From Candidatus Cloacimonadota bacterium (GTDB lineage Bacteria > Cloacimonadota > Cloacimonadia > Cloacimonadales > Cloacimonadaceae): a stretch of DNA of 64,000 nt. Where the stretch lies: assembly GCA_028695495.1 (NCBI GenBank), contig JAQVIX010000003.1, positions 1 to 64,000 on the forward strand, in the 5' to 3' direction. This document shows, one piece after another, positions 15,607-53,708 of the stretch. The translations under genes were made by a program, and so were the position numbers. How positions within the stretch are numbered: the stretch's first letter is position 1; the number at the start of each line of letters is the position of its first letter. The notes beneath the pieces were generated by a model that ran no database searches, had not been told where the DNA came from, and saw nothing but the letters and a program-made list of their open reading frames with translations.

Positions 15607-16896
15607 TCACCTCGCAGTGACGGGCTGGAGCCCTGCGGAGGAGGCGTAGCCGACGGAGCAGGGCTCCAGCCCGTCGCGCGGCACCTTAGTGGGTATGTGT
15701 TTTATACGAGTTCCTCTGATTGCTTCCATGGGGTCTGATAGGTATATTTTACTGCATGTCCATTCCTCTGAATAGTCTTGTAATATTGCACCTAATAGAC
15801 GTATGCAACTTTCATCATTAGGAAATATCCGGACACTTCTTTCTCTACGTCTAAGCTCCTGGTTAAGCCTTTCAAGGGGATTGGTAGATTTAATCTTAGA
15901 CCAATGGCTGAAGGGAAACTCAAGATATACCGATATTTCGTGATATGTATCTTCCAGCCACTCCAATAACCTATCTTTGCCTTTGATCTCAACAGTCTTG
16001 GTAAGCTCTTTCCATGCCAGGTTGAAAGATTCTACAGTTCTTGAGCCGACCAAGTCTTTGATTAGCGGAAGAAGCCAAACCAAATCGGTCTTTGAAACCT
16101 TACTCTGGGCATTACGCATCCAGTGGATGATGCAGCGCTGGCGTAATTGACCAGGGAAGCACTCTTCTATTGCCTGGATCAAACCGTCATGCTCATCACT
16201 AATCCAAAGCTCACCACGCTCAAGACCACGGGCTTTGAGGCTTTGCAAAAAGTCTTTCCAGTTATAATAGCTCTCTTTGTTGCCTAAATAAAGACCCAAC
16301 ACATCGCGATAACCGTCTTTTCTTAGCCCTATGGCAACTAAAACAGCTCTTGATACTACTCCTTGTTCTGTGCGAACCTTGACGTAAAGCGCATCAAGCC
16401 AGATATAAACATAGTGTTGGTCTAAATCCCTATTCTTCCAGATTTCTACTTCTTTATCTATTTGGGCGGCACAACGGCTGACCAAGCTACGATCAATTCC
16501 TGCTACCCCAAGCTCCTCAAACAACTGGTTCATTTTGCGTGTTGACACTCCAGCAAAATAGGCTTCACTGATGATGGTGATCAATGCCCTATCTACACGT
16601 TGGTATCTCTCAAGTATTGATGGGTAAAAGCTACCTTTTCTGGGTTTGGGAATACTTATATCCATAGGACCGATGGCTGTATTGAGTGGTTTTTTGCGAC
16701 GCCTGTAGCCATTTCGATAGTTAGTACGGCTCTCGGAGCGCTCATAGGATTCCGCTCCAAGTTCCATGTCATATTCAGCCTCAATCACGATTTGGACAAA
16801 CTTCTCTAATAAATTGATGAAGCTTCCAGGAACTAATTCATCAATTTGCTTGACCAATTTGGCGACTTTGTTTTTCTTTGTTCTTAGTTGAGTCAT
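15607..16896 (-). CDS. IS256-family (Mutator-type) transposase, C-terminus altered by a palindrome
   Basis: A 429-residue DDE transposase of the MULE/IS256 type. The family signature is clear: SRTNYRNGYRRRKK near the N-terminus, a first catalytic Asp in YIWLDALYVKV, a second in WISDEHDGL and the Glu in TNPLERLNQELRRRERS. CIIHWMRN is the conserved region between. AAGGAGACG precedes the ATG. Family members are usually about 390-410 residues. The last two dozen residues here (from PRDGLEPC to GLQPVTAR) are encoded by an 18-bp perfect inverted repeat, so the natural C-terminus appears to have been replaced. Catalytic residues are intact and the element could still be active. Confidence 0.92.
   Translation of the reverse strand: MTQLRTKKNKVAKLVKQIDELVPGSFINLLEKFVQIVIEAEYDMELGAESYERSESRTNYRNGYRRRKKPLNTAIGPMDISIPKPRKGSFYPSILERYQRVDRALITIISEAYFAGVSTRKMNQLFEELGVAGIDRSLVSRCAAQIDKEVEIWKNRDLDQHYVYIWLDALYVKVRTEQGVVSRAVLVAIGLRKDGYRDVLGLYLGNKESYYNWKDFLQSLKARGLERGELWISDEHDGLIQAIEECFPGQLRQRCIIHWMRNAQSKVSKTDLVWLLPLIKDLVGSRTVESFNLAWKELTKTVEIKGKDRLLEWLEDTYHEISVYLEFPFSHWSKIKSTNPLERLNQELRRRERSVRIFPNDESCIRLLGAILQDYSEEWTCSKIYLSDPMEAIRGTRIKHIPTKVPRDGLEPCSVGYASSAGLQPVTAR
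15619..15675. repeat. perfect 18-bp palindrome arm pair inside the transposase 3' end
   Basis: GACGGGCTGGAGCCCTGC at 15619-15636 is exactly complementary to 15658-15675, with a 21-nt loop. It is much more GC-rich than its surroundings and overlaps the end of the transposase gene. It looks like a secondary insertion of a REP-like hairpin. Confidence 0.85.
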
Positions 16897-17022
16897 TTTC
16901 GTCTCCTTGTTCTTTAGTTTTTTGTCTTGAAAACCATTAAAACAAAGAACGGATTTGGCTCAACCTTTTTCTTCAAAAGGCGCTTACCAATTTACACCAC
17001 TCTTTGAGACACTACCAATTTG

Positions 17023-17097
17023 AAGCCATCTTAGCCTTCATTTTCTCCGTATTAGTTCATTGTTTTTTTTCTTTACCCACTATATTTGAAAGAAAGC
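17023..17097. repeat. 75-bp inverted repeat, left copy
   Basis: The reverse complement of 20686-20759 matches this stretch over its whole length with only a few mismatches (shared core CATTTTCTCCGTATTAG and ACCCACTATATTTGAA). A partial third copy is at 33674-33731. The pair brackets the AAA ATPase/ADP-ribosylglycohydrolase cassette. The left copy begins 13 bp from the IS256 end. Confidence 0.8.
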
Positions 17098-17149
17098 TTT
17101 ATTTCATATCTACTTGCGCTAATTGATGATCTGGCGGCTGTTATTCATG

Positions 17150-17980
17150 TTAAAACCCCACCTTTCTTTCCAAATTGTGTTTACCCAGCGCTTCCAGCTC
17201 GGCATAACGCTCAATATCCTCCAGCAGCAATTTGGCGTTTTTGCCGCGTTGCATGGCGTGATAGCAGGCATTTTGCACGATGATGCGGATTAGCCCACCG
17301 CTGAGGCAATACTCATGCCCCCGATATTCGCAATCAATCTCTGCCGCACCGGGTATCTCTTTTACCAAGTGCAATCTCCAAAGCCGGCTGGCGGCGCTGG
17401 CATCCGGCAGCTTAAATTCCAGCTTGAAATGGAGGCGGCGAAAGAGCGCCTCATCCATATTATTCATCAGGTTTGTAGTGAGAATCAGGATGCCGGGCAG
17501 CTTTTCCAGCTCTTCCAAAAAGATGTTTTGGATGGCGTTTTCCGTGCTCGCCACATTGCTAAGGCGGGTATCCGAACGCTTATGCAGTATCAAATCCGCT
17601 TCGTTCAGCAGAAATACGGGTGCCGTTTTGGGCTTTTGATTTGCATGGCGGATGGCTTCAAATAGCTCTTTCACTCGCTTTTCGGTTTCCCCATAGTATT
17701 TATCTCGCAGCTGGCTGGCTTCGATCTTGATCAAATCGCGTCCCAATTCATTGGCAATTACTCCGGCGCTATAGGTTTTGCCCGTACCTGCCGCCCCATA
17801 AAGAAGTATGAGGCAGGAGTTTAGTGCCTGGGCATCCGTACTAAGCGAAGGACTCCGCAAAGACCAACGCGAGAGATCAAAATACTCCGGATTTTTCAGC
17901 CGGGCAATAATGCTTTCCATAAGCTGATACTCGTTGTTATTCAACACCAAATCCGGCAAGCGCTGCGTGGTATTTACCAA
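17150..17980 (-). CDS. AAA-family ATPase, coupled to the upstream unknown gene
   Basis: A 276-residue AAA+ ATPase. Walker A is GAAGTGKT at residues 62-69, Walker B is PVFLLNEADLIL with Asn-Glu in place of the usual Asp-Glu pair, sensor 1 is ILTTNL, and an arginine-finger-like FRRLHF follows. The C-terminal lid is short. This is a single ATPase module with little N-terminal domain, so substrate specificity probably comes from a partner. Its TTG start overlaps the stop of the upstream gene (TTGGTAA), implying translational coupling. Target and function are unknown. Residence between inverted repeats beside an ADP-ribosylglycohydrolase suggests an accessory role, which is inference. The TTG start is the least certain point. 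Confidence 0.8.
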   Translation of the reverse strand: MVNTTQRLPDLVLNNNEYQLMESIIARLKNPEYFDLSRWSLRSPSLSTDAQALNSCLILLYGAAGTGKTYSAGVIANELGRDLIKIEASQLRDKYYGETEKRVKELFEAIRHANQKPKTAPVFLLNEADLILHKRSDTRLSNVASTENAIQNIFLEELEKLPGILILTTNLMNNMDEALFRRLHFKLEFKLPDASAASRLWRLHLVKEIPGAAEIDCEYRGHEYCLSGGLIRIIVQNACYHAMQRGKNAKLLLEDIERYAELEALGKHNLERKVGF

Positions 17981-19038
17981 GCTAAAAGCCCATCGCCATC
18001 TTCCAAAAGCTGCTTTATCAGCTTCTTTCCGTCCTCATCTTCCTCCGTGGGAAAACCTTCGCTTAGTTCAAAGCGCTTATAGAGCTCGCCCTTTAGCTCC
18101 AGGTCGCTTCTGCGCCTGAAAGGTACCCTTTGTGCCTGCATCATACGGTTTTCCTTCATCAGATAGCGTCTGCGCAGCCCCCGGCGCAATTGCTCTCTCT
18201 CATGGCTATTGCGCCCAAGGTATGCTGCAATTTGCGGTAATTCATAGTCATGGTCATTTTTAGACGCACGGTAAAGCAGGGAGCACACAAGGAAATCCAG
18301 TTTATCCATGCCAAAATCCCGAATAATCGCCTTGAGGCTGCTATCTTCAGGGGATGCTTCAATGCTATCCCAAAGCAATTCCAGATAGTAGCGAATGATA
18401 TTGCCGGCGGAGATCAGCTTGCATTCTCCTTCATCCAGATAGCGCATAAGCAGATCCAAATAGTTACTTACATATTGCATTCCCGGATATTGCCCGATAT
18501 AATCCGGCTCCAGCAAGGCTTTGAGGCTTCCATAGCAATCCACGCCCAGCAGCACTGCCTTCAGATAAGGATTCAAATAGGTATTTACCTCGCAGATGCT
18601 TACGATATCCAGCGCTTCATCCCGGCGATCGCTGGCAATCATCAGCCCGCGTTCATAAAGGCTCAGGAGAAACTTTGCCTGCTTTAGATAAGGCAGGTCT
18701 TTGGCAGATTCTTTGTCTCTAAGGCATTCCAAATCGCAAGCCTCAATTCTGCCGCGAATAAAATAGCCAAATTGCTCGGCGATGATCTCGATATCCAGTT
18801 TGCTGAGCTTTAGAAAGCTAAGATTCGGATTTGTGCTTACTTCTTTTAATGCCGCTTCCATGTATTTTTCGTAAGTCTCTTGCACCGGCTCCTGAGCCGG
18901 GGTTTCGGCTTGAGTCTCGGTATCAGAATAATTTACAATGGGTTTGCCTCTGCGGTCGCGCCGGCCTCTTTTGGGTGCTGTGGGGTCTTGTTTTTGGAGT
19001 TCCACCAGGTTTTGGAAAATTAAGCTGATATCTTCCAT
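17974..19038 (-). CDS. uncharacterised protein, putative partner of the AAA ATPase
   Basis: A 354-residue soluble protein that I do not recognise. Residues 20-35 are strongly basic (KRGRRDRRGKP) and residues 40-60 are acidic and Pro/Gln-rich, probably disordered. The rest is Leu-rich and predicted helical, with an Arg-rich stretch near 280-310 (REQLRRGLRRRYLMKE) and an acidic tail ending EDGDGLLAW. No signal peptide or membrane segment is seen. AAGGAG precedes the ATG. Its stop overlaps the start of the ATPase gene, so the two are almost certainly made together. An adaptor or substrate-recruiting subunit is a reasonable guess only. Confidence 0.7.
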   Translation of the reverse strand: MEDISLIFQNLVELQKQDPTAPKRGRRDRRGKPIVNYSDTETQAETPAQEPVQETYEKYMEAALKEVSTNPNLSFLKLSKLDIEIIAEQFGYFIRGRIEACDLECLRDKESAKDLPYLKQAKFLLSLYERGLMIASDRRDEALDIVSICEVNTYLNPYLKAVLLGVDCYGSLKALLEPDYIGQYPGMQYVSNYLDLLMRYLDEGECKLISAGNIIRYYLELLWDSIEASPEDSSLKAIIRDFGMDKLDFLVCSLLYRASKNDHDYELPQIAAYLGRNSHEREQLRRGLRRRYLMKENRMMQAQRVPFRRRSDLELKGELYKRFELSEGFPTEEDEDGKKLIKQLLEDGDGLLAW

Positions 19039-19340
19039 GTTTTTTCTCCTTACTTTTTATATAGAATACGTTTTTCAGGGCACAACCGTCCCCGAGTTGG
19101 TGATTTCCTTGAGTTTTTTGAACCCTTTATCCTACTCTATCAGGTTCTTTGGGTATCAAATGCCTGTTGTTCTTTTGCTACATGATTTAGTTCTGGTGGT
19201 TTATTTATAGTAAATGAAGGATATATTTCACCCATAAGATTACCCTGCCGCTGCCATACATGAAAACGTGAGTGCGGCACATATATTAAAATAGTCCGTT
19301 TTCTGAAAAAAGCAAATAATTCTATCGTTTATTTTGTTCT

Positions 19341-20363
19341 TTAGCCCTGATACAGTGCCAATACGGCTTCGATTTCCTCCTTGCTTTGCAGGAGGTCAAT
19401 CCAGTTTGCGGGGATTTCCTCAAAGCCATATAGCAAAGCGGCTACTCCACCGGCAATCGCGGCAATGCTATCGGTATCTTCACCCAGTTTTACTGCTGCC
19501 AATAGGGTTTCCTCAAAGCTTTCGTTATTCAAAATGCACCATAAAGCGGCTTCCAGGCTGTGCACCACGTAGCCGGAGGAGTGCAGGTAGTTGCTGGGGT
19601 TATCCACATTATTGCTATCAAAAGCGGCGATATCGTAATCTATAAGCCGCATTAGCTCCATCGCGTCTTTTACCGTGATCGGTATTCTACAAGAAAAGTC
19701 ATACATCTCTTTCTGTATTTCCTCAAATGCCTCATGCTTATCCATTTTGTTCAGGATGCGCTCGGCAAAACGCAGGTAATACAAACAGCAGAAAACGCTG
19801 CGAATATGCGGATGCGTAAGCGCGCTTACCTCTTTTACATACTGGTAGGCGGTATCGATATCTTGCCCGTAAGTCTTGATCAATAGCGGCAAAATGCGCA
19901 TCAGGGCGCCGTTACCATTGGCGTTTACGATGTTTTGTTTGATCAAATTGGGTAATTCCGCTGCGTTTTTATCCGCCAGCTCTTTTGCCTGCGGAATGCC
20001 GATAGCGCACTGCCTGCCAATATCAAAGGCGTAGGGAAGTGCGCTGCGGTAGCCCTCGGAAAGCCAGGCATAATTCTTTTGCGCCATATCGCCGAGGTCG
20101 TAGCCACTTGCCAGGCTTTCTGCCAAACACAAGGTAAGCGAGGTATCATCCGACCACAAACCAATGATCTGAGGCAGGTATTTGTGGTATTCATGCCCGG
20201 AACGGTATTTACCCATATCTACAATGGGATGGCGGCTCGCATAATCGCGGGATTTAAATTGCATGGGAAAGCCTAAAGCATCACCTACGGCAACGCCATA
20301 AATGATATGTTTCATAAGGATGGGAAGTGTGTAGCCAGCAATTTTGACTTCAGATTGATTCAT
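19341..20363 (-). CDS. ADP-ribosylglycohydrolase family protein
   Basis: A 340-residue member of the ADP-ribosylglycohydrolase (DraG/ARH) family, which removes ADP-ribose from proteins or small molecules using two Mg2+ ions. The signature motifs are GVAVGDALGFP near residues 24-34, SDDTSL near 71-76 (metal ligands) and LGEDTDSIAAIAGG near the C-terminus (the second Asp-rich metal site). Length is typical. GGAGG precedes the ATG, and a minus-strand TATAAT box lies about 40 bp upstream. No ADP-ribosyltransferase partner is seen nearby. It lies in the same orientation as the AAA pair but about 300 bp upstream, so it may be transcribed separately. The substrate is unknown. Confidence 0.88.
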   Translation of the reverse strand: MNQSEVKIAGYTLPILMKHIIYGVAVGDALGFPMQFKSRDYASRHPIVDMGKYRSGHEYHKYLPQIIGLWSDDTSLTLCLAESLASGYDLGDMAQKNYAWLSEGYRSALPYAFDIGRQCAIGIPQAKELADKNAAELPNLIKQNIVNANGNGALMRILPLLIKTYGQDIDTAYQYVKEVSALTHPHIRSVFCCLYYLRFAERILNKMDKHEAFEEIQKEMYDFSCRIPITVKDAMELMRLIDYDIAAFDSNNVDNPSNYLHSSGYVVHSLEAALWCILNNESFEETLLAAVKLGEDTDSIAAIAGGVAALLYGFEEIPANWIDLLQSKEEIEAVLALYQG

Positions 20364-21026: not shown

Positions 21027-21983
21027 ATGCCCCAGGCTTCAAACTATAATGGAAGAGCCTTTGAATATATTACACTGCACACATTTCAAGAGGAAATACA
21101 AAAGAAGTGTGCGGTGATAATAGATGAATCCGAAGGCTATAATGCCGCCAAGAAGGCATGGGAGGCAATAAGTCCCCAAACCCGTATTGCTTTGAAGAAT
21201 AGCGCCGTAGTAGCTGTGAATATTGTATTAGAATTGGAACCTCTCATCTTGAAAGAAAAGAAACATACGCTTTCTCTTAGAATACAAACAGACGCCAGCG
21301 GCAAAGAAGGCGATGTACGGGATCTGATTATCGAACGCCCCAAGCTGCAATGGGAAATAGGGCTTAGCTTAAAACACAATCACAAGGCGGTAAAACACAG
21401 CAGGCTGGCAAAGACCCTGGATTTTGGTAAGAGCTGGTATAATATCCCATGTTCAAACGAATATTGGGCTGCGGTAAAACCGGTTTTTGACCGCCTCGAA
21501 TTGGAGAAGGGCAAAAGGACAAAATGGCGGGAAATCTTAAACAAAGCTGATACGGTCTATTTGCCTTTGTTGGATGCTTTTACACAAGAAATACAAAGAG
21601 CCAGCACCAAAAAACCCAGGAAAATGCCCGAGCTAATGACCTTATATTTATTAGGTATTTACGATTATTATAAAGTGCAAACGAAAGATAGCCGTAAACT
21701 GGTGAACCTGAAAGCATTTAACCTACATGGCACGCTTGGTTTGGTGGATATAAAGGCAAAACAATCAAAGATTAAGGTGCTTTCCTTGCCCAATCGGATT
21801 ATCCATATTGGTTTGAAACCCAAAAGCAAAACAACGGTTGAAATGTATTTGAATAATGGCTGGTCATTTAGCTTTAGATTACACAGCGCCAGTACCCAGG
21901 TAGAACCCAGCCTGAAGTTTGATATAAACCTAATCGGGCATCCTAACGAAATGCTAAGCATTACCCGAAGCTGGTTGGGTTAA
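21027..21983 (+). CDS. HaeIII-family type II restriction endonuclease
   Basis: A 318-residue member of the HaeIII restriction endonuclease family, expected to cut GGCC. The diagnostic block is residues 90-126: SGKEGDVRDLII, then WEIGLSLKHNHKAVKHSRL. Asp96, Glu110 and Lys116 are plausible catalytic positions of a PD-(D/E)xK-like centre. Length matches R.HaeIII, and the downstream gene is a close M.HaeIII relative, which makes the assignment strong. The N-terminal NYNGRAFEY is also typical. GAGAGGTG precedes the ATG. The exact sequence specificity is inferred from family and partner, not shown directly. Confidence 0.92.
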   Translation: MPQASNYNGRAFEYITLHTFQEEIQKKCAVIIDESEGYNAAKKAWEAISPQTRIALKNSAVVAVNIVLELEPLILKEKKHTLSLRIQTDASGKEGDVRDLIIERPKLQWEIGLSLKHNHKAVKHSRLAKTLDFGKSWYNIPCSNEYWAAVKPVFDRLELEKGKRTKWREILNKADTVYLPLLDAFTQEIQRASTKKPRKMPELMTLYLLGIYDYYKVQTKDSRKLVNLKAFNLHGTLGLVDIKAKQSKIKVLSLPNRIIHIGLKPKSKTTVEMYLNNGWSFSFRLHSASTQVEPSLKFDINLIGHPNEMLSITRSWLG

Positions 21984-22045
21984 GTGGGTATGAAAATGCA
22001 AATGAATTACAGCCATATAAATATAACACTGCAACGGGGCATAAA

Positions 22046-23098
22046 ATGAACATCGCTTCCCTCTTTTCCGGTGCCGGTGGCTTGGATTTGGGCTTTAAAC
22101 AAGCCGGATTCAAGGTGATCTGGGCAAATGAATTTGATAAATCGATCTGGGATACCTTCCGGCACAATTTTCCGAATACCATGCTGAATACAAATAGCAT
22201 TGTAGATATAGCTTCGGATGAGATTCCCGATGTGCAAGGCATCATTGGGGGACCTCCCTGCCAAAGCTGGAGTGAGGCGGGTGCCGGACGCGGGATAAAC
22301 GATAGCAGAGGGCAGCTTTTTTATGAATATATCCGGGTTTTGAACGATAAAAGACCGCTCTTTTTTCTGGCGGAAAACGTTTCGGGCATCTTGCTACCAC
22401 GCCATAGAGCCGCGTTTCATGCGATCGTAGATAGCTTCCGAAACATAGGCTACGATGTAAAATGGGCATTGCTCAATGCAGTGGATTATGGAGTTCCGCA
22501 AGACCGCAAACGAGTAATCATCATCGGATTTCGCAGCGATTTGGCAGTGTATTACAAATATCCGCCGCCCCTGCTCTATACGAAAAACTTAGATGAAGCT
22601 ATTGGGGATATGCCGCCGCCTTTACCCGCTTTGGAAAATAACAAAGCCAATAGTCCTCAAGATTTGCCCTTACCAAATCATGAATACATGACCGGCGGCT
22701 TTTCTACCATCTATATGTCTCGCAACCGGGTAAGAGCCTGGCATGAACCCTCTTTTACCATTCAAGCCGGCGGCAGGCATGCGCCCATTCATCCCAGCGC
22801 ACCCAAAATGAGATTTATCGAACAAAATATAAGGGTCTTCAAGCCGGGGCATGAACACGAATACCGTCGCCTCTCGGTGCGGGAATGTGCCAGAATACAA
22901 AGCTTTCCGGATAATTTTATCTTCAAATATAATAGCCTAAGCGATGGCTACAAGATGGTGGGCAATGCGGTGGCGGTGGAATTTGCCAGAGTATTGGCAA
23001 TGTCCATTGCTGAGGCTTTGGCGGCGCGGGTTTTGCGGAAACCGCTTGAGTATGGTTTGGCGGCACCGAATGGTATTGGGCTAAGAGCAGAGAGTTAA
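22046..23098 (+). CDS. DNA (cytosine-5) methyltransferase, M.HaeIII-like
   Basis: A 350-residue C5-cytosine methyltransferase that protects host DNA, probably at GGCC. Motif I is SLFSGAGGLDLGF (AdoMet binding, residues 5-17), motif IV IIGGPPCQSW carries catalytic Cys72, motif VI is FFLAENV, motif VIII QDRKRV and motif X GNAVAVEFA. The block STIYMSRNRVRAWHEPSFT in the recognition region closely resembles M.HaeIII (STIFMSRNRVRQWNEPAFT), supporting the same target. It follows the endonuclease by 62 bp in the same direction. Endonuclease-first order usually requires some control to protect the cell on transfer; no controller gene is present. Confidence 0.95.
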   Translation: MNIASLFSGAGGLDLGFKQAGFKVIWANEFDKSIWDTFRHNFPNTMLNTNSIVDIASDEIPDVQGIIGGPPCQSWSEAGAGRGINDSRGQLFYEYIRVLNDKRPLFFLAENVSGILLPRHRAAFHAIVDSFRNIGYDVKWALLNAVDYGVPQDRKRVIIIGFRSDLAVYYKYPPPLLYTKNLDEAIGDMPPPLPALENNKANSPQDLPLPNHEYMTGGFSTIYMSRNRVRAWHEPSFTIQAGGRHAPIHPSAPKMRFIEQNIRVFKPGHEHEYRRLSVRECARIQSFPDNFIFKYNSLSDGYKMVGNAVAVEFARVLAMSIAEALAARVLRKPLEYGLAAPNGIGLRAES

Positions 23099-43473: not shown

Positions 43474-46341
43474 CTATTCGTTATCCATATATTTACCTTT
43501 CCTATTGTTGAAAGCATTGAGAGTTCCCTCCAATATGTCTGTAACGTGCTTATTCATTACTGGGTTTTCTATACTGCCGGCTTTAAAACTAAACTGGTTA
43601 TTATTACTTTTATCTATATGCACATAGATCAATTGCTCAGCATCACAGGCAACCGCAATGTTGGGATTATGAGTCACAATAATAATCTGTCTTCTTTTCT
43701 TTGCTTCCAGAATAAAGGGTCTTAATATCTGATAAACACTTTGATTATCAAGGTTTTCTTCTGGTTGATCTATAATTAATGGATTTGTAGATTTATCCAG
43801 TAAAAGATAAATAACCAATAATACTGTGCCCTTTTCACCAGGTGATAATTCGTTTATACTAACGTTGTTGGATTTGATTTCAGTTAAGGAGTCCAAAAAC
43901 TCAATTCCAAACAAGTATTCGTAAAACCGGTATTGTGTTGATTTTCCATTTGTTATCCGAAATTGGCTTGCAATATCTTCAATCTCGTTTTTTTGTGGAC
44001 TTCTCGTGTCTTTAAATAAAGCTCGTATAAAATCATCTATAATTATCTCTAATTGATCTCTATCAACTCCTTGCCTTGGATTGAATATCTCGTTCAATCT
44101 ATTATTAGCTTCTTCTTTTCCATAAAATGAGCCCTTAACTCCAGCATTTAAGTATTGGTCTTGGATTATGTTAATACAATTATTAGATGATATAACTGAT
44201 GCGGAAAAACTAAGTGAATGATCAGATATGTTCGGGATTTTTGTTTGCCATGTTTTAATGCGTTGCTCTACGTATGTAAAACAACCTTCTTCAATTTTGA
44301 TCTTTTCTTGAAGGATATCAAATAAATCAAGAGACAATCCTTTCAATGCGTTGATGCATTTGCTTATGTCCTCTTTCAGTTCGCTATTAATATACTGAAG
44401 TTCTTTTTCATGCTTGTTCTTTGCTTCAGATAATTCGACCTTTTTTTTGTTGAAGGTTTCGAGGGCAGTTACATAGTTCAAATATTCTTTTTGCCTTGCC
44501 GATATCGATTCCGACAAAACTACAATATTCTTCTGGATATTCTTGACTATGTTTCTTGCTTTATCTCTTTTGGGGACTGCGTTCTTAATACAAGCTTCGC
44601 ATTTATTTATTTGCTTTTGTAGAGCTTCTTTATCGAAAGTAAAAGATATTATTGAGCTAATATCAAGCCCTAATTGAGCCGTTAGTTCTTTGTTCTTATC
44701 AGTGATTTGAGCAATACTGAGTTGGATCTCTTCACACTCCTTAAACAAATTCTCTAATTGGTGTTTTTGTAAATATGTACTTTTAATCTCGTTCTCTAAT
44801 ATGACTGCCTTTTGTCCAATTGCTTCTTGACGAGACTTATAAATACTTATCTTGGTCAATGTGGCGGTTTGCTTCTCTTTTTCTTCTTGATTTATATCCG
44901 GGTTTGGCACCACTTCTGGTTCAGAAATTAGTCCCAATTGAGTTTCGTAATCTTTAATTGAGTTGTTCACCATCTCTTTATGAGAACGCAATAGTTTCTT
45001 TTCTAGTTTCAGTAATTCTTCAATATTCTTCTTGATTTCCTTCTTTTTTCTCAATTCTAAGGGTTGTATTGTTTCTGATTTAAGGCTCACATACTCGTCG
45101 TAGCTGCTTGCTCCCAATGTATTACTCTCTGGCATATACGAAAAGATGAGGTCCTTGATCCTTTTTTCAAAAGAACTTGCGACATCTGCACACAAGGATT
45201 CAATATAAGACTGCGGCAAATATGTTACTTTCTCAATCTCGTTCTCAATTCTATTTGCAAGGTTGCTTTCTAATACTGTTGACCCATCACCAAATCGGAT
45301 TTTCACTTGAAAATAATCATGTTCCTGTAACGCAAGAAACCTTCGTTTATTCAGAAACGAAAACTCTTTTTGATTCTTTGATCTTCCTGCTATCCCGATG
45401 AAATCCGCCAATGCGCTTTTCCCATGACCTTTATTCCCTATTATTGCAACTAATTCTTTATTAAATAGTATTTCTGGAATTCCGCTAAACCATCCGCAAT
45501 CTGTCTTCTTTCCCTGCTTTGTTGAGATTTCAAGAGATGTGATGAATTTTTCAGGATCTTGATCAAATCGAATCAAGACTTCTGGTCGTCGTCCTAAAAC
45601 TATCCTATTATCCATTTCTTTTATAGCTTGTTGCAGCCCTTTAAAAGTTGGATCCGCTTTGATCCAAGTTATGGGGATAAACTCGTATTTTTCGATATTA
45701 TGATTATCTGACCCAATCACCATAGGTTTTTGAAATCCTATTTTTTTGAATATTTTCTCTTTGTGTGATTTCTCATCATTGAGAGAGTTTATTTCGAATA
45801 TGTCTGTATACTCATAAGCCAAGTCCTTTTTTAGCTCTTGCTTATACAATATGCTGTTGCTTATTTCTTCAATACTGGAGGCTTTATTGCCGGCATGTAT
45901 AGCAACTAATCCATTATTTTGACGTATCAATTCCGAAGCTTTCCGAAATTCAACATATATAACTTCGTTTCCTTTTTCGGATACTTCTTTTGTCGTTATG
46001 TTTAAAGCATTTGATATTTTTTGCCATAGATAATCAATATCCGAATTTTCTGGAAATATGCCGGTGATATGAATGCTTTTTTTACCGCCAAGATCGGTTC
46101 TTAACTCGATTCCAGGTAAAATTGTAATTCGATTTTTTGATAGCTTAATCAATTCATTTATTCTTTCTGTATCAATGATGTGATGATCCGTGATTGCAAC
46201 AACTTCAATTTCATTCTTTAGCAATGTATCAACAATTTGTTGATTAGTAATAGCTTTGTTATGATAGTCATAAGATGATGGTGTATGCAAATGCAAATCC
46301 CACTTTCTCCATATTGAGCCTTGTGTTGATATGTTTTCCAT
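43474..46341 (-). CDS. PHP-phosphoesterase / zinc-hook SMC-like ATPase fusion, in a type I R-M operon
   Basis: 955 residues. Residues 14-220 are a PHP domain with an apparently complete metal site: His17, His19 (WDLHLHT), Asp52, His53 and His54 (AITDHH), Glu79 (LPGIELR), His149 (AIHAG), Asp212 and His214 (GSDNH). From about 290 comes a Rad50/SMC-like ATPase: Walker A GNKGHGKS (302-309), a coiled coil of about 430-690 with Cys581-x-x-Cys584 as a putative zinc hook at its middle, signature ELSPGEKGT (832-838), Walker B LIIDQPEENLDN (858-859) and switch His891 (VTHNP). AAAGGAG precedes the ATG. PHP-ATPase fusions are known and poorly characterised (TrlF is a name I recall). It probably cuts nucleic acid under ATPase control. 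Confidence 0.88.
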   Translation of the reverse strand: MENISTQGSIWRKWDLHLHTPSSYDYHNKAITNQQIVDTLLKNEIEVVAITDHHIIDTERINELIKLSKNRITILPGIELRTDLGGKKSIHITGIFPENSDIDYLWQKISNALNITTKEVSEKGNEVIYVEFRKASELIRQNNGLVAIHAGNKASSIEEISNSILYKQELKKDLAYEYTDIFEINSLNDEKSHKEKIFKKIGFQKPMVIGSDNHNIEKYEFIPITWIKADPTFKGLQQAIKEMDNRIVLGRRPEVLIRFDQDPEKFITSLEISTKQGKKTDCGWFSGIPEILFNKELVAIIGNKGHGKSALADFIGIAGRSKNQKEFSFLNKRRFLALQEHDYFQVKIRFGDGSTVLESNLANRIENEIEKVTYLPQSYIESLCADVASSFEKRIKDLIFSYMPESNTLGASSYDEYVSLKSETIQPLELRKKKEIKKNIEELLKLEKKLLRSHKEMVNNSIKDYETQLGLISEPEVVPNPDINQEEKEKQTATLTKISIYKSRQEAIGQKAVILENEIKSTYLQKHQLENLFKECEEIQLSIAQITDKNKELTAQLGLDISSIISFTFDKEALQKQINKCEACIKNAVPKRDKARNIVKNIQKNIVVLSESISARQKEYLNYVTALETFNKKKVELSEAKNKHEKELQYINSELKEDISKCINALKGLSLDLFDILQEKIKIEEGCFTYVEQRIKTWQTKIPNISDHSLSFSASVISSNNCINIIQDQYLNAGVKGSFYGKEEANNRLNEIFNPRQGVDRDQLEIIIDDFIRALFKDTRSPQKNEIEDIASQFRITNGKSTQYRFYEYLFGIEFLDSLTEIKSNNVSINELSPGEKGTVLLVIYLLLDKSTNPLIIDQPEENLDNQSVYQILRPFILEAKKRRQIIIVTHNPNIAVACDAEQLIYVHIDKSNNNQFSFKAGSIENPVMNKHVTDILEGTLNAFNNRKGKYMDNE

Positions 46342-46359: not shown

Positions 46360-47076
46360 CTATTCCCCCCACTCCTCATAGCTCAGCGGCAGCTTATTCA
46401 GCTTTTCCTTCCGCTGCCTCCAATCCGGCAGATATTTATCCATCAGTGCCTTGAATCTCTCATTGTGATGTTTTTCTATCAGGTGCACCAGTTCGTGCAC
46501 TACTATATATTCCAAGCAATCATCCGGCTTTTTTGCCAGTTCCAGGTTTATCCAAATGCGTTTTGCTTTTGTGTTGCAGGTGCCCCATTTGGTTTTCATT
46601 TGTTTTACTGTCCATTCATTTATCTGCACCCCGATTATTTCCTGCCATTTATCCATCAAAGGCTGCACTCGCACCTTTAGTCTTATCCTATACCACTCTT
46701 GAAACATTATATGCCTGTGTGCGTGGGGGGTACCCGGCTTTTCATGCAGCTCTATATGTGTTTTGCCTCTTAGCCGTATCCGGTGGATATTTGCACCGCT
46801 TATTACGTCCAAAAGATAGCGTTTGCCTTCCAAATAGTGGCTTTCGCCGGTAATATAATCTTTGTTGCTTAGCCGCTCTGCTGTTTCAAACTTCGCAATT
46901 TGCTTTTTGAGCCAGCTTAGTTTGGATACTATATGCAGGCGGATGCTTTCATCATCCAGCTCTTTGGGCACGGCGATGCGGATTCTGCCATGGGGTGGAT
47001 ATACTGCTAAATGCAAGTTTTTAATATCCTTCTTTTCTACATCGATGGTATAATCTGCTACGTTTATTTGCTGCAT
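46360..47076 (-). CDS. YgjP/M48-type metallopeptidase of the type I R-M operon
   Basis: A 238-residue YgjP/DUF45-type zinc peptidase. The active site HELVHLIEKHHNERF has His194, Glu195 and His198, with a further His at 203/204 as likely third ligand. WGTCNTKAKRIWINLEL precedes it, as is typical of the family. No signal peptide is seen, so it acts in the cytoplasm. It starts one base after hsdR and ends 18 bp before the PHP-ATPase gene. Such peptidases are recurrent neighbours of type I R-M genes. Possible roles are trimming of HsdR or processing of DNA-protein adducts, but neither is shown. Confidence 0.87.
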   Translation of the reverse strand: MQQINVADYTIDVEKKDIKNLHLAVYPPHGRIRIAVPKELDDESIRLHIVSKLSWLKKQIAKFETAERLSNKDYITGESHYLEGKRYLLDVISGANIHRIRLRGKTHIELHEKPGTPHAHRHIMFQEWYRIRLKVRVQPLMDKWQEIIGVQINEWTVKQMKTKWGTCNTKAKRIWINLELAKKPDDCLEYIVVHELVHLIEKHHNERFKALMDKYLPDWRQRKEKLNKLPLSYEEWGE

Positions 47077-47077
47077 T

Positions 47078-50000
47078 TTAATACTCGTTTTGGTTTTTTA
47101 CCAGTTCAAATATCCGGTTTACTTCGCTTTCATCCTGTAGCACCTTATAGATTGCCCCTTGTATCTCCCGCTCTTTGGCTATATTTTCGCGCCATTGTGC
47201 CTTTTTTATATTATTGATAGCTTCATCCACTGCCAGAGCCTGGCTTTCGTTTTGCCCCAGGTTGTCATACAGCGCTCTTTTTGCTTTGGTATTTAACTTT
47301 TCCGAATATCGCTGGGAAGTTTCAGGCTTACGCACCAGTTTTACTATCTCCATAATCTTTTTCAGATATTCACTATAGCGCAGTGCCTCTGCTTTCCTTT
47401 GCTTGATAAGCACATCTAAAAGCCTGGACATCAATTCAAAATAGATGGGATTTCCCGGCATTTCATCGATGATTATCTTCCTTACATTGTTTTCGATTGT
47501 TTCCGCTGTGGCCTCTTCATTGCTCTTGATCCCTTCCGGCAAATTTTCAAAAGCTTCCTCCCCTTTTTGGATGATCAAATCCACCAATCCCAGATCGTCA
47601 AATGCCGATACTTTTACGGAATCTGCCGCTTGAATGTAAGTGTCGATCAGGTGCCGCATTGCCGGCTCATACATTTTGAGATCGATATAATCCCCGCTTG
47701 CCAGCTTGATTAGCCTCCGCAGCCTTTCAAAAAACTCCACTTCCCGAACTATCTTATTTGCCTCTTCTTCCGAGAAACCTGCCTCTTCCATCTCATTTGC
47801 CATATCGGCATAAGCTCTCAATAGCGATGCCGTAAACTTGTACAACATGAGCCGTTTCTGCTCGTTCTCTTCCAATTCTTTTTCATTTTGGGTATCTCCG
47901 CAAAAATAGCGAATGTAATCCTGCTCATATTTGGGTGGTTGCACCGGCTCACATAGAGCTTTCAGGCTCTCCAGCATTTCTATTAGCCGCTCTTTGGCTT
48001 TATCCAGTCTATCGCTTAAAAGCCCAAGGATATCTGCCTTTTCATAAGCATCAAAAGCTCCGGAAGTATAGTCGGTTACGGCTATATTTACTTTGGGAAA
48101 GAGAGCTTTGTAATCTACGATATAACCGTATTCTTTGTCTTCTTCATCAATGCGGTTTACCCGGCAAATTGCCTGAAATAGCCCATGATCTTGCATGAAC
48201 TTATCAATATACAAATAGGTGGCGCTGGGTGCATCAAATCCTGTTAGGAGCTTATCCACCACGATGAGCAATTTCATTTGCCCCGGCTCTTGCACAAAGC
48301 GTTTTTTTACCTCTTCTTCAAATACTTCCACGCTTTTGCCGCCAAGCATCTTTTGATAAACCTCATATTTCAGCAGATCATCCGGCAGATCATCATCTCC
48401 GGAATCCTGCATTTTGATATCATTGATATATGGGATATAAGAGCTTACGATAGCGCACTTTTCAAAGCCGCTTTCGGTAAAAAGCTGATAGTATTTACAT
48501 GCCTCAAAGATGGAACCCGCTACCAAGATGGCATTTCCTCTGCCGCTGGCAAGGCGATCCTTGGTTTCCATATCCAGCCTGATATCCGCCACGATATTTT
48601 CCAAACGGCTGCGTGAGCTTAGCACCCGTTGCATGGTGCCCCATTTGCGTTTTAGCTCTGCTTTGGCAAGCGGCTTTAGCCCCTTGGTTTTGCTTTCAAA
48701 CCACAGGTCGATCTTTTCTTTGGAGGTGATCCTTTGGTCAATGTCCCGGGCTTCATATCGCAAATCCACGATTGCCTTATCCTTTACTGCTTCATCAAAC
48801 TTGTAGGTATCTATGTATTTGCCAAATACTTCCAGGGTGGTTTGTTTATCCGTTCTCAAAAGCGGAGTGCCAGTAAAGCCGATAAATAGCGCCTCCGGCA
48901 ATATGGCTTTCATTGCCTTGTGCAATTCGCCGGATTGCGTGCGATGGCATTCATCTACAAATACATGCAGATTCCCCTTTGCCTGGAAGCCGCTTTTTGC
49001 CAAATTGCTCAGTTCCAGCGCATAAGATAGCCAATCTCCCTCATCTTTATTTCTGAACTTGTGGATTAGCGAACACAAGAACCAGTTTTCAGTGGAAGCC
49101 AGGCGCCCAATGAGATCCACGCCGCTTTTGGTGCGCACTATCTCTTCATCCACTCCCCGAAATACGTTTTCTATCTGTTTATCCAATTCATCTCTATCGG
49201 TAATGATCAATACTCTGGAACCCGTTATGTTTTCCCGTATCCACTTTGCCAACCATACCATGATCAGGCTTTTACCGCTGCCCTGCGTATGCCAGATGAT
49301 GCCGCCTTCGCGCCCCAAAATAAAATCTTGCGCTGCCTTTACCGCGTTATATTGATTATGACGGCAGAGCTTTTTGATGCCAGAATCATATACTACAAAA
49401 TCGTGGATTAGCTCCAAAAAGCGTTCTTTGTCAAAGAGCGCGAGAATATGGCTATCCAGATTTTGCTCCCGCTTCCCTTTTTCTTTCCACTTCAGATAAT
49501 ACTTTTCGCTGGTCTCAATGGTGCCATAGCGCAAACCCTCGCTATCGTTTCCCGCCATTACAAATTGCACCGTGCCAAAGAAATGCTGGATAAACTCCCG
49601 CTTTTGGCTATCGATATTTTGGCGAATACCTTCCGCTACAGATACAGTGCTGCGCTTTAGCTCTATTACTGCCAGAGCAATACCATTTACATATATCACC
49701 AAATCCGGTCGCTTATTATGTTCGCCGGATACCGTCACCTCCTCGGCAATGCCAAAGTGGTTCATATCCGGCTCTCTCCAATTGATCAGTTCCACGGTTT
49801 GGCTATTTGTGCCAATATCTGGCTTGATCTTGAGTCCATAACGCAAAAGTGTATAAACTTCACGGTTGATATCGTAAAGATTCTTATTCTGAGCACCGGC
49901 GACGCGCTTAAGTTCAAGTATTGCTCGTTCGATTAGCTCTTGCGCATAGCCTACGTTTTTAAGATAAGCCTTTAAATACTCTTCTTCAATGGCTTGATTA

Positions 50001-50107
50001 TCCTCTCGCTCTTGCCAATTGCCCAAATACTTATAGCCAAGCTGCTCCTGAAAAAGCCGGATAATCCTATTTTGAGTTTCTCTTTCTATTGCTCCCACTT
50101 CAGTCAT
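47078..50107 (-). CDS. hsdR: type I restriction enzyme subunit R
   Basis: 1009 residues. The N-terminal nuclease domain has a PD-(D/E)xK centre: Asp135 (KRPDLVIYV), Glu149 and Lys151 (AVIELKR). Two RecA-like helicase domains follow: Walker A QGSGKSLIM near 275, DECHRTQSG (motif II), FIGFTGTPL (motif III-like) and QAICRVNRI (motif VI-like). The rest is helical and binds the HsdM/HsdS complex. It translocates DNA and cuts unmodified DNA. The ATG overlaps the hsdS stop (ATGA). The frame shows no truncation. Confidence 0.97.
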   Translation of the reverse strand: MTEVGAIERETQNRIIRLFQEQLGYKYLGNWQEREDNQAIEEEYLKAYLKNVGYAQELIERAILELKRVAGAQNKNLYDINREVYTLLRYGLKIKPDIGTNSQTVELINWREPDMNHFGIAEEVTVSGEHNKRPDLVIYVNGIALAVIELKRSTVSVAEGIRQNIDSQKREFIQHFFGTVQFVMAGNDSEGLRYGTIETSEKYYLKWKEKGKREQNLDSHILALFDKERFLELIHDFVVYDSGIKKLCRHNQYNAVKAAQDFILGREGGIIWHTQGSGKSLIMVWLAKWIRENITGSRVLIITDRDELDKQIENVFRGVDEEIVRTKSGVDLIGRLASTENWFLCSLIHKFRNKDEGDWLSYALELSNLAKSGFQAKGNLHVFVDECHRTQSGELHKAMKAILPEALFIGFTGTPLLRTDKQTTLEVFGKYIDTYKFDEAVKDKAIVDLRYEARDIDQRITSKEKIDLWFESKTKGLKPLAKAELKRKWGTMQRVLSSRSRLENIVADIRLDMETKDRLASGRGNAILVAGSIFEACKYYQLFTESGFEKCAIVSSYIPYINDIKMQDSGDDDLPDDLLKYEVYQKMLGGKSVEVFEEEVKKRFVQEPGQMKLLIVVDKLLTGFDAPSATYLYIDKFMQDHGLFQAICRVNRIDEEDKEYGYIVDYKALFPKVNIAVTDYTSGAFDAYEKADILGLLSDRLDKAKERLIEMLESLKALCEPVQPPKYEQDYIRYFCGDTQNEKELEENEQKRLMLYKFTASLLRAYADMANEMEEAGFSEEEANKIVREVEFFERLRRLIKLASGDYIDLKMYEPAMRHLIDTYIQAADSVKVSAFDDLGLVDLIIQKGEEAFENLPEGIKSNEEATAETIENNVRKIIIDEMPGNPIYFELMSRLLDVLIKQRKAEALRYSEYLKKIMEIVKLVRKPETSQRYSEKLNTKAKRALYDNLGQNESQALAVDEAINNIKKAQWRENIAKEREIQGAIYKVLQDESEVNRIFELVKNQNEY

Positions 50108-51327
50108 AATAACCTGATCCTCCCCGTTAAAAGTTCTTGCATCATGGCTTGTTTGATTGATCGATATTTAGATAGTCTTTTTTCTAAAAAAGCGATTTCC
50201 TTATCTAATTCCATAATCAACATGGAAATAGCAATTTGCTCTTCCAAAGATGGCATCTCAATTATTATGTCCCTCAAATCATTTGCATGCAAGTGATGAA
50301 TTGTTGTTCCTTTTGTTTTTGTTGCGATGGAATATCGTTTGTTCACATTAATATAAAGAGAAATAAATGCAGAATCAAGTTTCTCAATCGGTCTTAAGAT
50401 ATTGATATCTCCACCTAATAAGACTCCGCCAATCTTCAAAGCTGAAGATTTTGCTAAATCAATACCAGTGGTTGTGGTTGAACCTGGCAATAGTATATCA
50501 CCAGAGATAGACTCTACGCCCTCGCAAACATTTGTAGCGCTATGCACTTTATCAATTATGTCTGTATAAGTTGTAAATAGTTCTCCATACAAAATGCACT
50601 TATATTGACCTGTAGAATGTAACTGTGATTTAGATAACCCGCTACCTCTTAAAATACTAAAACATGCTCCAATGATTTTTGTCTCCCACTCTCCCGTAAA
50701 ACCAGGTAGTCTTTTTTTGCCTGTTAGTAATTCCTGCATTACCCCTTGCTTAATGAGCTTCTTCTTCTCGATCAGCTTCTCAAGGGAAGCCATGAGTAAA
50801 TCTATATCATTTAATTGTTCACTTATCTTTTGCTGAACATCTTTTTTAGGGAATAGAACTTTAATTGATAGAAATGTGGTTTTGTTTATTATTGGAACTG
50901 CTTGCTCACTTGCCGAAGCTCGTAATGCTGTCCTATTATTCAAAAGGTAGTAATATAGGAAATCCGTGTCATAATCTTTATTGGGTAGTATTGAATTAAC
51001 TTGTTGATTTGTTGTGAGAATCTTATCTGCTACTGCCGCCTTTCCTATAGTTGATCCAATGCAAGTAACTAATATACTATTTGCAGGGACGGGATTTGCT
51101 CTATTAAATCCCCGTTCTGAGAGCATTTTTGCGCTACTTGATAAATATTTCTTTGTTCCGATATCACCGGGACCTACAAACAAATATTCTATTCCGTAAT
51201 ATGATTTTTCATTTGTTGGTGGTGTTCTTCCCGTTATTACATCGGAAAATTCTCCAATTGATTTAATTTCCCAATCCTCAGGAATCACACCAATTTCAGT
51301 TCGTTTGTATCCGGGCTTTATTTCCAT
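50104..51327 (-). CDS. hsdS: type I restriction-modification specificity subunit S
   Basis: 407 residues with the classical two-half layout. TRD 1 lies near residues 15-165 and the first conserved helix region contains KLIEKKKLIKQGVMQELLTG (near 190-215). TRD 2 follows and ends at a second helix region with KQAMMQELLTGRIRLL. The repeated QELLTG motif marks the pseudo-symmetry. The two TRDs read a bipartite target that cannot be predicted from sequence alone. The start overlaps the hsdM stop by ten bases. No inverted repeat or second hsdS that would suggest phase-variable shuffling is seen in the window. Confidence 0.95.
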   Translation of the reverse strand: MEIKPGYKRTEIGVIPEDWEIKSIGEFSDVITGRTPPTNEKSYYGIEYLFVGPGDIGTKKYLSSSAKMLSERGFNRANPVPANSILVTCIGSTIGKAAVADKILTTNQQVNSILPNKDYDTDFLYYYLLNNRTALRASASEQAVPIINKTTFLSIKVLFPKKDVQQKISEQLNDIDLLMASLEKLIEKKKLIKQGVMQELLTGKKRLPGFTGEWETKIIGACFSILRGSGLSKSQLHSTGQYKCILYGELFTTYTDIIDKVHSATNVCEGVESISGDILLPGSTTTTGIDLAKSSALKIGGVLLGGDINILRPIEKLDSAFISLYINVNKRYSIATKTKGTTIHHLHANDLRDIIIEMPSLEEQIAISMLIMELDKEIAFLEKRLSKYRSIKQAMMQELLTGRIRLL

Positions 51328-53708
51328 GAAAATCCCATCCTTTGCAGGTGTGCTTCTACCTTTGCGCTCAGTGCCGCTACTTCGGCTTCTATCTCTGGCA
51401 AGGGTTCAGCGTAACGTTCTGCTAATTCGATTATCCGGCTTGCCAAGCGGTGGGAAATAAGTTCCAAAGCGCCTTGCACCTCGCTTTTTACGGTTGCTAG
51501 CCATTTATCTTCCACGATCAGGCTTTTTATCTCCACTTCGTTTAAGCTTTTGTATTTTTTGTCAATTAGCCCGTCCAGGCTTTTCTTTGCCTGTTTTAGT
51601 ACGCTCTTGCTCTCTGTTTCGGCATCCAATAGTTTCAGATACTTTGTTAGGATTTGTAGCTCTGCTTCGGAATCTTTTGTTTGTTTTAGTGCTTTGATGC
51701 TATCGGTTAAAAGTGCCTTTGTAATCTTTCCTTTGTTGTTGCGGGTGCTTTCCAGGGGATCATTTTCTTCGCTCTCGCTTTCTGCTGCCAATTCTTTCAT
51801 TTGCTGCGTCAGGCTTTCTATTTGCTCTTCAAGCGCGTTTATAGTCTGATCTTCGCTGGCAAAATAGCGCTTGATAATCAACTCTGCGGGCAGCATTTCC
51901 TTATCTGCCTGCCAGCCTTCTGCCACTATTTGGTAAATATCGTCTTGCATGGTATCTGCCCAATATTGCATCAGGATTTGGTAAACATCATAAGCATCAA
52001 TCAAGGGGTTGCTTTTAAAGAGTGCGAGCAATTTTTCGGATATGTCGTGGATAATCTCTTTGGGTTTATCTGCGGGTTTTATTTGTTTTAGCCTTTCTGT
52101 GCAGGCGTTTTCCCAATTATTTAGCTTTTGCATCCATTCGCTTTTGAAGGTGTTAAATTGCTTATTTTCTAAAATATGGGAGCTTAGCTCTATTGGCAGG
52201 ATATTTAGCTTCAGGTAACCTTCCCGCTGTAGTGGGCTAAATAGTGTGTCTTTCAGATCTGGTAGCACCTGCCAGTATTGTTTTAGCGCTTCAATATCTC
52301 GCGCGGGAATACCGCCCTTGAGGTGGGCTTCTATATCTTGCAGGTCTTCGCTAAGGTTATTATCGATATAGCGGGGGATATTCAGGTTGTATTCATTCTT
52401 TTTTATCTCGGAATATTTCACCTTGCGGGAATACTTTTCTATCTCGCTAAATTTGCCAAAGGCATCCACGATCTTGTGGATATCTTGCTCGCGCAGGCGG
52501 TTTTTATTGCCATCTTTGGCAAAGTCTTTGCTGGCATCTATGTAGAATACAAAGTCCCGATTTTGGTCTTCCTCTTTGTCTATTACGATAATGCAGGCGG
52601 GTATTGGTGTACCATAAAAGAGGTTTGCGGGTAAGCCGATAATGCCTTTGATGTATTTGCGTTCAATCAGGTTTTTGCGTATTTCTGCTTCGGCGCCGCC
52701 GCGAAAAAGCACGCCGTGGGGCAGGATGATTGCGCCTTTGCCGGTGCTTTTTAAGCTTTTTACCAAATGCAGAAGGAAGGCATAATCGCCATTTTTCTCT
52801 GGCGGAATGCCAAAGCTGTCGAATCTATTGTATATATCCTGTTCTGGATTAAAGCCGTTTCTCCAATTTTTGGTAGAGAAGGGGGGATTTGCCACGGCAA
52901 AATCAAAGGTGAGCAAGCTATTTTCATCTTTCTTAAATTGCGGCGATGATAGCGTATTGCCCTGATGGATTTCAGCGGTGGTTATCCCATGCAGGATCAT
53001 ATTCATCTTTGCCAATCCGGTCATGGAAATATCTATTTCCTGCCCAAATACACTAATGGCGATAGGGGCTTCATTTGCCGCTTTTATCAGAAGGGAACCG
53101 GAGCCACAGGTAGGGTCATATACACTTTGGGTTGTATTATCTGCTTTGTTTATTCCTAATACCTTGCTCATTATCCGGGAAACTTCGGCTGGGGTATAAA
53201 ATTGCCCCTTGCTTTTGCCGGATTGCACAGCGAAATTTTTCATCAGATATTCGTAAGCATCGCCCAAAAGGTCATCGCCTTCAGCACGGTTATTACTGAA
53301 ATCGAATTCTGGTTTATTAAAAATACCCAGCAGCCCGGAGAGTCTATCCACCATCGCCTTGCCATCGCCCAATTTGGTTTTGTCATTAAAATCAGTAATA
53401 TCTATTACGCCCTTTAGCCCATTTGCTTCGGCTAAGCGTCCAATGATTTTATTTATTTGGTCGCCTATATCGTCTTTACCAGCATAAAATAGCATGTCGC
53501 CAAAGCTTCCGCCTTCTCCGGGTTCTTTACCCTTGGGAATCTTAATCGGTGAGAAGGGATCGCTTTCTTTACCATATTTATCAGATACATATTTTACAAA
53601 GAGCAATACCAAGATATAGTCTTTGTATTGGGAAGCGTCCATGCCTCCGCGCAATTGGTCGCAAGCTTTCCATATATCACTATATAGCTCACTCTTTTTT
53701 AGTGCCAT
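51318..53708 (-). CDS. hsdM: type I restriction-modification methyltransferase subunit M, long C-terminal extension
   Basis: 796 residues. An N-terminal HsdM helical domain is followed by an N6-adenine methyltransferase: DPTCGSGSLLIKAA (AdoMet site, near 195) and NPPFSTKNW (catalytic, near 273). The conserved core ends near residue 480, close to the usual HsdM size of about 500. The extra 300 residues are Lys/Glu-rich with coiled-coil character (EEQIESLTQQMKELAAE). HsdM proteins of this long type are known; the extension probably contacts HsdS or HsdR. GAGGG precedes the ATG. It is the first gene of the five-gene operon. Confidence 0.95.
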   Translation of the reverse strand: MALKKSELYSDIWKACDQLRGGMDASQYKDYILVLLFVKYVSDKYGKESDPFSPIKIPKGKEPGEGGSFGDMLFYAGKDDIGDQINKIIGRLAEANGLKGVIDITDFNDKTKLGDGKAMVDRLSGLLGIFNKPEFDFSNNRAEGDDLLGDAYEYLMKNFAVQSGKSKGQFYTPAEVSRIMSKVLGINKADNTTQSVYDPTCGSGSLLIKAANEAPIAISVFGQEIDISMTGLAKMNMILHGITTAEIHQGNTLSSPQFKKDENSLLTFDFAVANPPFSTKNWRNGFNPEQDIYNRFDSFGIPPEKNGDYAFLLHLVKSLKSTGKGAIILPHGVLFRGGAEAEIRKNLIERKYIKGIIGLPANLFYGTPIPACIIVIDKEEDQNRDFVFYIDASKDFAKDGNKNRLREQDIHKIVDAFGKFSEIEKYSRKVKYSEIKKNEYNLNIPRYIDNNLSEDLQDIEAHLKGGIPARDIEALKQYWQVLPDLKDTLFSPLQREGYLKLNILPIELSSHILENKQFNTFKSEWMQKLNNWENACTERLKQIKPADKPKEIIHDISEKLLALFKSNPLIDAYDVYQILMQYWADTMQDDIYQIVAEGWQADKEMLPAELIIKRYFASEDQTINALEEQIESLTQQMKELAAESESEENDPLESTRNNKGKITKALLTDSIKALKQTKDSEAELQILTKYLKLLDAETESKSVLKQAKKSLDGLIDKKYKSLNEVEIKSLIVEDKWLATVKSEVQGALELISHRLASRIIELAERYAEPLPEIEAEVAALSAKVEAHLQRMGFSWK

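Follow-up and report, generated by a model that had tools for sequence, protein, structure and literature searches.

A gene for an apparent nuclease-ATPase fusion that stands last in a type I restriction-modification (R-M) operon raises the question of whether its product depends on the restriction enzyme beside it or is an independent defence protein that travels with it. We consider here such a gene, trlF, found in a 64,000-nucleotide stretch of DNA from a Candidatus Cloacimonadota bacterium (contig JAQVIX010000003.1, positions 1 to 64,000; hereafter the window), whose features are collected in Table 1.

The gene is a single, unbroken reading frame of 955 codons on the minus strand, with the motif AAAGGAG 7 nt 5' of its ATG, and it is the fifth and final gene in the order hsdM-hsdS-hsdR-ygjP-trlF. 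An earlier note on this DNA had placed it as the fifth gene of a type I R-M operon, and when the open reading frames and the operon were re-read, its coordinates, gene count and motif positions proved correct. Genes at the operon junctions either overlap or are separated by gaps of 1 and 18 bp, i.e. by 18 bp at most. According to the profile matches the host cassette is intact, with hsdM, hsdS and hsdR all present. The G+C content of trlF (33.8%, in a window of 46.7%) is unlike that of hsdM, hsdR and ygjP (43-44%), which is consistent with a separate acquisition of trlF; hsdS, an operon part that is frequently swapped, is likewise low in G+C here (35.4%). The window also holds a separate type II R-M pair on the plus strand (21027-23098), in which a HaeIII-type restriction endonuclease (PF09556, 375 bits) lies beside a C5 cytosine methyltransferase, and adjoining this pair, on the minus strand (15607-20363), are genes for a Mutator-type transposase, an AAA ATPase with a partner gene of unassigned family, and an ADP-ribosylglycohydrolase.

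Table 1. The trlF gene, its protein motifs and its operon (positions in the window; residue numbers refer to the TrlF protein)
Feature	Position	Strand	Basis
trlF, PHP-domain / SMC-Rad50-like ATPase, TrlF/Ppl family	43474..46341	-	955 aa ORF; NF045780 match
PHP domain, residues 17-249	45595..46293	-	conserved residues and fold match
Candidate PHP metal ligands H17, H19, H53, E79, H91, H149, D212, H214			
Walker A GNKGHGKS, residues 302-309	45415..45438	-	motif and alignment
Signature LSPGE (832-836), Walker B LIIDQPEE (855-862), switch His891	43663..43851	-	motif and alignment
Coiled-coil hairpin, residues 426-701, predicted turn ~550-570	44239..45066	-	AlphaFold2 model, pLDDT mostly 80-95
CEAC, residues 581-584 (the "zinc hook" of the earlier note)	44590..44601	-	private to the window protein, off tip
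ygjP, YgjP-like / SprT-type metalloprotease (predicted M48-like peptidase of type I R-M islands)	46360..47076	-	PF01863, 192 bits
hsdR	47078..50107	-	TIGR00348, 532 bits (cut-off 285)
hsdS	50104..51327	-	PF01420, two domains
hsdM	51318..53708	-	TIGR00497, 282 bits (cut-off 243); PF02384

The trlF product matches the NCBIfam model NF045780 ("TrlF family AAA-like ATPase") with 528.2 bits against a cut-off of 350, over residues 8-951 of 955 and model positions 2-943 of 944, with the same domain order, whereas against the Ppl model NF042955 (PADLOC Ppl, polymerase/histidinol-phosphatase-like) it reaches 138.4 bits in two partial stretches and stays below the cut-off of 1000. It is a full-length member of the TrlF family and not Ppl itself. 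Since E. coli Ppl (L101) scores 476 bits against NF045780, above the TrlF cut-off, Ppl is in NCBI terms a sub-group of the TrlF family, and the PHP-ATPase fusions whose presence in databases the earlier note mentioned are indeed catalogued there. Ppl and the window protein both have PHP and SMC-like ATPase domains in one chain and a complete PHP site, but the window protein lies in an hsd operon and Ppl falls in another clade of the family tree, which has long branches. Identity to E. coli Ppl is 25% in the stretch with PHP and Walker A (residues 8-320) and 37% in the C-terminal head (residues 833-947), and with so low an identity, in two blocks, and a separate clade, substrate and trigger may differ. 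A search of the literature found no experimentally tested member of the window protein's own clade, and a database search found no solved structure of TrlF or Ppl. Ppl has been reviewed as a 3'-5' exonuclease on ssDNA that requires 3'-OH ends and nucleotide depletion, its PHP and NTPase being inhibited by NTP (PMC12904381), and presence of ppl correlates with phage resistance in Staphylococcus epidermidis (PMC13152194).

An N-terminal PHP domain and a C-terminal SMC-like ATPase are joined in a single polypeptide, as had been proposed from the DNA alone and as profiles, predicted fold and Foldseek matches now bear out. The AlphaFold2 model, built on 25 sequences, has a mean pLDDT of 84.8 and a pTM of 0.68. 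Its PHP part matched, in the PDB, RNase AM (7ug9, TM 0.67 on the target, and 9etk), EndoQ (5zb8) and the Pol III PHP domain (2hpi), so that by predicted fold it appears closest to nuclease-type PHPs (RNase AM, EndoQ), and the remainder matched SMC-type proteins (Smc, JetC, Lamassu and Rad50 heads); the piecewise matching of the domains keeps the whole-chain TM-scores low. A search of a viral structure library returned generic SMC/Rad50 and Pol III PHP matches and nothing else. The predicted SMC-type head and coiled coil are common to Lamassu and Wadjet as well, but the window protein is a single polypeptide with a PHP nuclease of its own and has no LmuA or JetD partner.

All eight residues that the earlier note assigned to the metal site (His17, His19, Asp52, His53, Glu79, His149, Asp212 and His214) are found at those positions. 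Asp52 belongs to a TDH motif and is, we presume, not a usual PHP ligand; His91 is a further conserved candidate, and the ligand roles of all these residues are those expected from the PHP family. We compared them across 58 full-length family members including the window protein, an uneven sample drawn from its own phylum, proviral contigs and plasmids, many with short flanks. Glu79 and Asp212 are practically invariant and His17 and His19 nearly so, while His53, His91 and His149 divide the family. Out of the 58, 19 keep H17, H19, H53, E79, H91, D212 and H214, and the full set, with His149, is present in the window protein and its close relatives (L008, L009, L028, L029, L039, L040, L046 and L102). 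About half of the members show a co-ordinated change, in which H53 is replaced by Tyr, H91 mostly by Asn, and H149 is lost; members with Tyr at position 53 retain H17, H19, E79, D212 and H214. These proteins are possibly a distinct TrlF sub-type, perhaps differently metallated, and with about half of the family so altered, nuclease activity is not family-wide in identical form.

In the ATPase, the Walker A, signature and Walker B motifs of an SMC/Rad50-like protein, which had been recognised before, are all present, and together with the switch residue His891 they are near-invariant in the TrlF family. The zinc hook fares differently. A CxxC (CEAC) does exist in the coiled coil, but it is absent from all 57 other full-length members and lies, in the model, beyond the hairpin turn, within the descending helix 571-611; a chance CxxC in a 955-residue protein with nine cysteines is expected in about 7% of cases. 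A motif that is private, off the tip and this easily met by chance does not support a zinc hook, and with it falls the specific kinship with RloC that the earlier note had drawn. RloC is similar in joining an ATPase of the zinc-hook or SMC type to a nuclease and in its linkage to type I loci; however, the nuclease of the window protein is N-terminal and of unrelated fold, its C-terminus is an ATPase head, and no PrrC or RloC anticodon-nuclease model was among the PADLOC, Pfam and NCBIfam matches. Lacking both the conserved tip CxxC and a C-terminal anticodon nuclease, the protein is not a member of RloC, and the comparison holds for location, not for mechanism.

Whether trlF belongs to its operon by necessity can be judged from related cassettes. 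Cassettes orthologous to that of the window (HsdR 57-78% and YgjP 46-78% identical) occur in two genomes of the same genus (G044 and G041), one of the same family (G033) and one of the same order (G065), at loci (L115, L117, L118 and L127) that all lack an intact trlF; the gene is wholly absent from the cassettes of G041, G033 and G065. The locus L115 (G044:C66, 719-1501) has a stub of the TrlF PHP N-terminus (37% over 134 aa) that starts 7 bp past the end of ygjP and continues in frame as a Por_Secre_tail/FlgD_ig sorting domain, i.e. either a trlF broken by deletion or a mis-assembly chimera. The fifth-gene slot of the hsdMSR-ygjP cassette is therefore exchangeable. Some other type I loci of the phylum (L119, L120, L121 and L125) have PADLOC candidates in or beside the operon: PDC-S39 twice, PDC-S60 once and PDC-S06 once, the last also a PrrC match.

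Two plasmids, pCFR-0b27 of Citrobacter (L138) and one of Vibrio cidicii (L144), carry more distant cassettes of this kind, in which trlF lies between hsdS and hsdR, paired with trlG and upstream of hsdR-ygjP, so that the ygjP-like gene adjoins hsdR there too; a search of E. coli genomes with the Citrobacter trlF gave no match. TrlG, which combines Schlafen AlbA_2 and HATPase_c_4 domains, also adjoins TrlF in the TRL locus of Photorhabdus and in several further members, whereas the clade of the window protein goes without it, and no TrlG homologue was found in the 64-kb window. The pair occurs as well in a BREX-1 operon of Vibrio parahaemolyticus pLH80-1 (L140, 323-12818; pglX-TrlF-TrlG-pglZ-brxL), and Klebsiella grimontii L139 has a BrxL-TrlF neighbourhood. 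A 2025 paper describes type I islands in which cargo lies between hsdS and hsdR and a gene for an M48-family peptidase follows downstream (PMC12255303); in four genomes it places in this slot two clustered genes, one for an RNA-binding protein and one for an AAA-like ATPase, which we infer to be the TrlF-TrlG pair as in L138 and L144. These RptR-type islands resemble the window in having hsdM, hsdS and hsdR, then a metallopeptidase gene, with cargo; they differ in that the cargo of the window is trlF alone, 3' of the peptidase gene, and in that an RptR-like ORF, looked for 5' of hsdM in the window, was not found. Upstream of hsdM, RptR-like 6-mers occur in single copies, not above expectation for motifs so short. 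Given these islands and the catalogued family, neither the PHP-ATPase fusion nor its R-M operon setting is new.

The distribution of trlF is patchy. Within the phylum, 15 of 125 genomes have it, and the 11 other genomes of the same genus all lack it; a homology search of the genome contigs with the window protein alone gave a single partial match. Only four of the 58 full-length members have hsd genes nearby, namely the window protein, L028, L041 and Sulfitobacter L103 (L138 and L144, reached via HsdR or a TrlF relative, are not counted). This exceeds the roughly 0.5% expected per locus, a uniform background in which neither the clustering of defence islands nor short flanks are taken into account, which makes the excess no more than indicative. 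Gene order also differs: the TrlF gene follows hsdMSR-ygjP in the window, is placed as M-x-S-TrlF-AbiE pair-R in L028 and TrlF-M-S-R in L103, and is divergent from R-M-S in L041. Most other members are solitary, or have recombinases, transposases, Abi genes or further defence genes as neighbours on plasmids. For the family, linkage to R-M is genuine but not obligatory. With 54 of 58 members outside type I loci, one of the outcomes that the earlier note had named as refuting its proposal is seen; these members still lie in mobile or defence settings.

These observations bear on the proposal of the earlier note that the protein fires when restriction fails, i.e. that, like PrrC or PARIS, it would be silenced by the Hsd complex and released when restriction is blocked or evaded. 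PrrC offers a precedent (PMC12707154), trlF closes an intact hsd operon, linkage is above the rough background, and TrlF occurs in the hsd cassettes of L138, L144, L103 and L028 and, in L140 and L139, within or next to BREX genes. However, most members have no neighbouring hsd genes, the operon position varies, orthologous cassettes without trlF exist, and linkage by itself is weak evidence because defence genes cluster anyway. The survey and the orthologous cassettes speak against an obligatory partnership; dependence on R-M as a general rule is unsupported, and we regard such a guardian as unlikely here. The mobile or defence settings of members without hsd genes leave a defence role standing, as a self-contained module, and the window protein is very probably an anti-phage protein.

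We therefore favour, with moderate confidence, the view that trlF encodes a standalone Ppl-like anti-phage effector and is an exchangeable passenger gene at the 3' end of a type I cassette. In its favour are the NF045780 scores of both proteins, their alignment, the nuclease and SMC folds, the PHP site that is intact in the close relatives too, the sporadic occurrence, the orthologous cassettes without intact trlF and the differing G+C content. On the model of its E. coli homologue Ppl, the heads of SMC/Rad50 type would dimerise around NTP and keep the N-terminal metal-dependent PHP nuclease inactive. Infection might then deplete the nucleotide pool and expose free 3' DNA ends, whether phage nucleases or HsdR itself had made them, and with the NTP brake lifted the PHP domain would digest the strand so exposed, its most likely activity being that of a 3'-5' single-strand exonuclease; polarity, gating and trigger are here all carried over by analogy. 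The operon location would then mean co-expression and co-transfer with R-M rather than an obligatory partnership.

One may also consider an abortive effector whose PHP domain cleaves tRNA or other RNA, as RNase AM does, and so stops the cell. An RNA target has to be taken seriously as a rival, because no solved PHP fold is closer than that of RNase AM; RNase AM/RNM also heads the profile matches, and the related partner TrlG carries a Schlafen AlbA_2 domain, prokaryotic Schlafens having been described as RNases (PMC12839542). Nevertheless, the tested relative Ppl acts on ssDNA (PMC12904381), SMC/Rad50-like heads are usually DNA sensors and the window has no TrlG, so that this explanation, too, seems improbable to us. 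It is rather doubtful that TrlF without TrlG, at the 3' end of hsdMSR-ygjP, is a second-line effector functionally wired to restriction, whose PHP exonuclease would be triggered by HsdR-made ends or by lost Hsd activity; if so, it would be a cut-then-degrade or guardian system, distinct from a lone Ppl. That TrlF is instead a stress or temperature growth-arrest factor, as its naming after the temperature-restricting locus of Photorhabdus might suggest (PMC7554251), is very improbable, since the selected mutations in that study fell in trlG and none in trlF, and members are found in R-M loci, BREX loci and mobile elements.

The analysis disposes of the false lead of a zinc hook and of kinship with RloC, and assigns the window protein to a family that includes a defence nuclease already studied by experiment. 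A swappable cargo of TrlF, alone or together with TrlG, is common to type I R-M cassettes and at least one BREX operon, and this shared cargo makes the question of an independent back-up or an R-M guardian directly testable.
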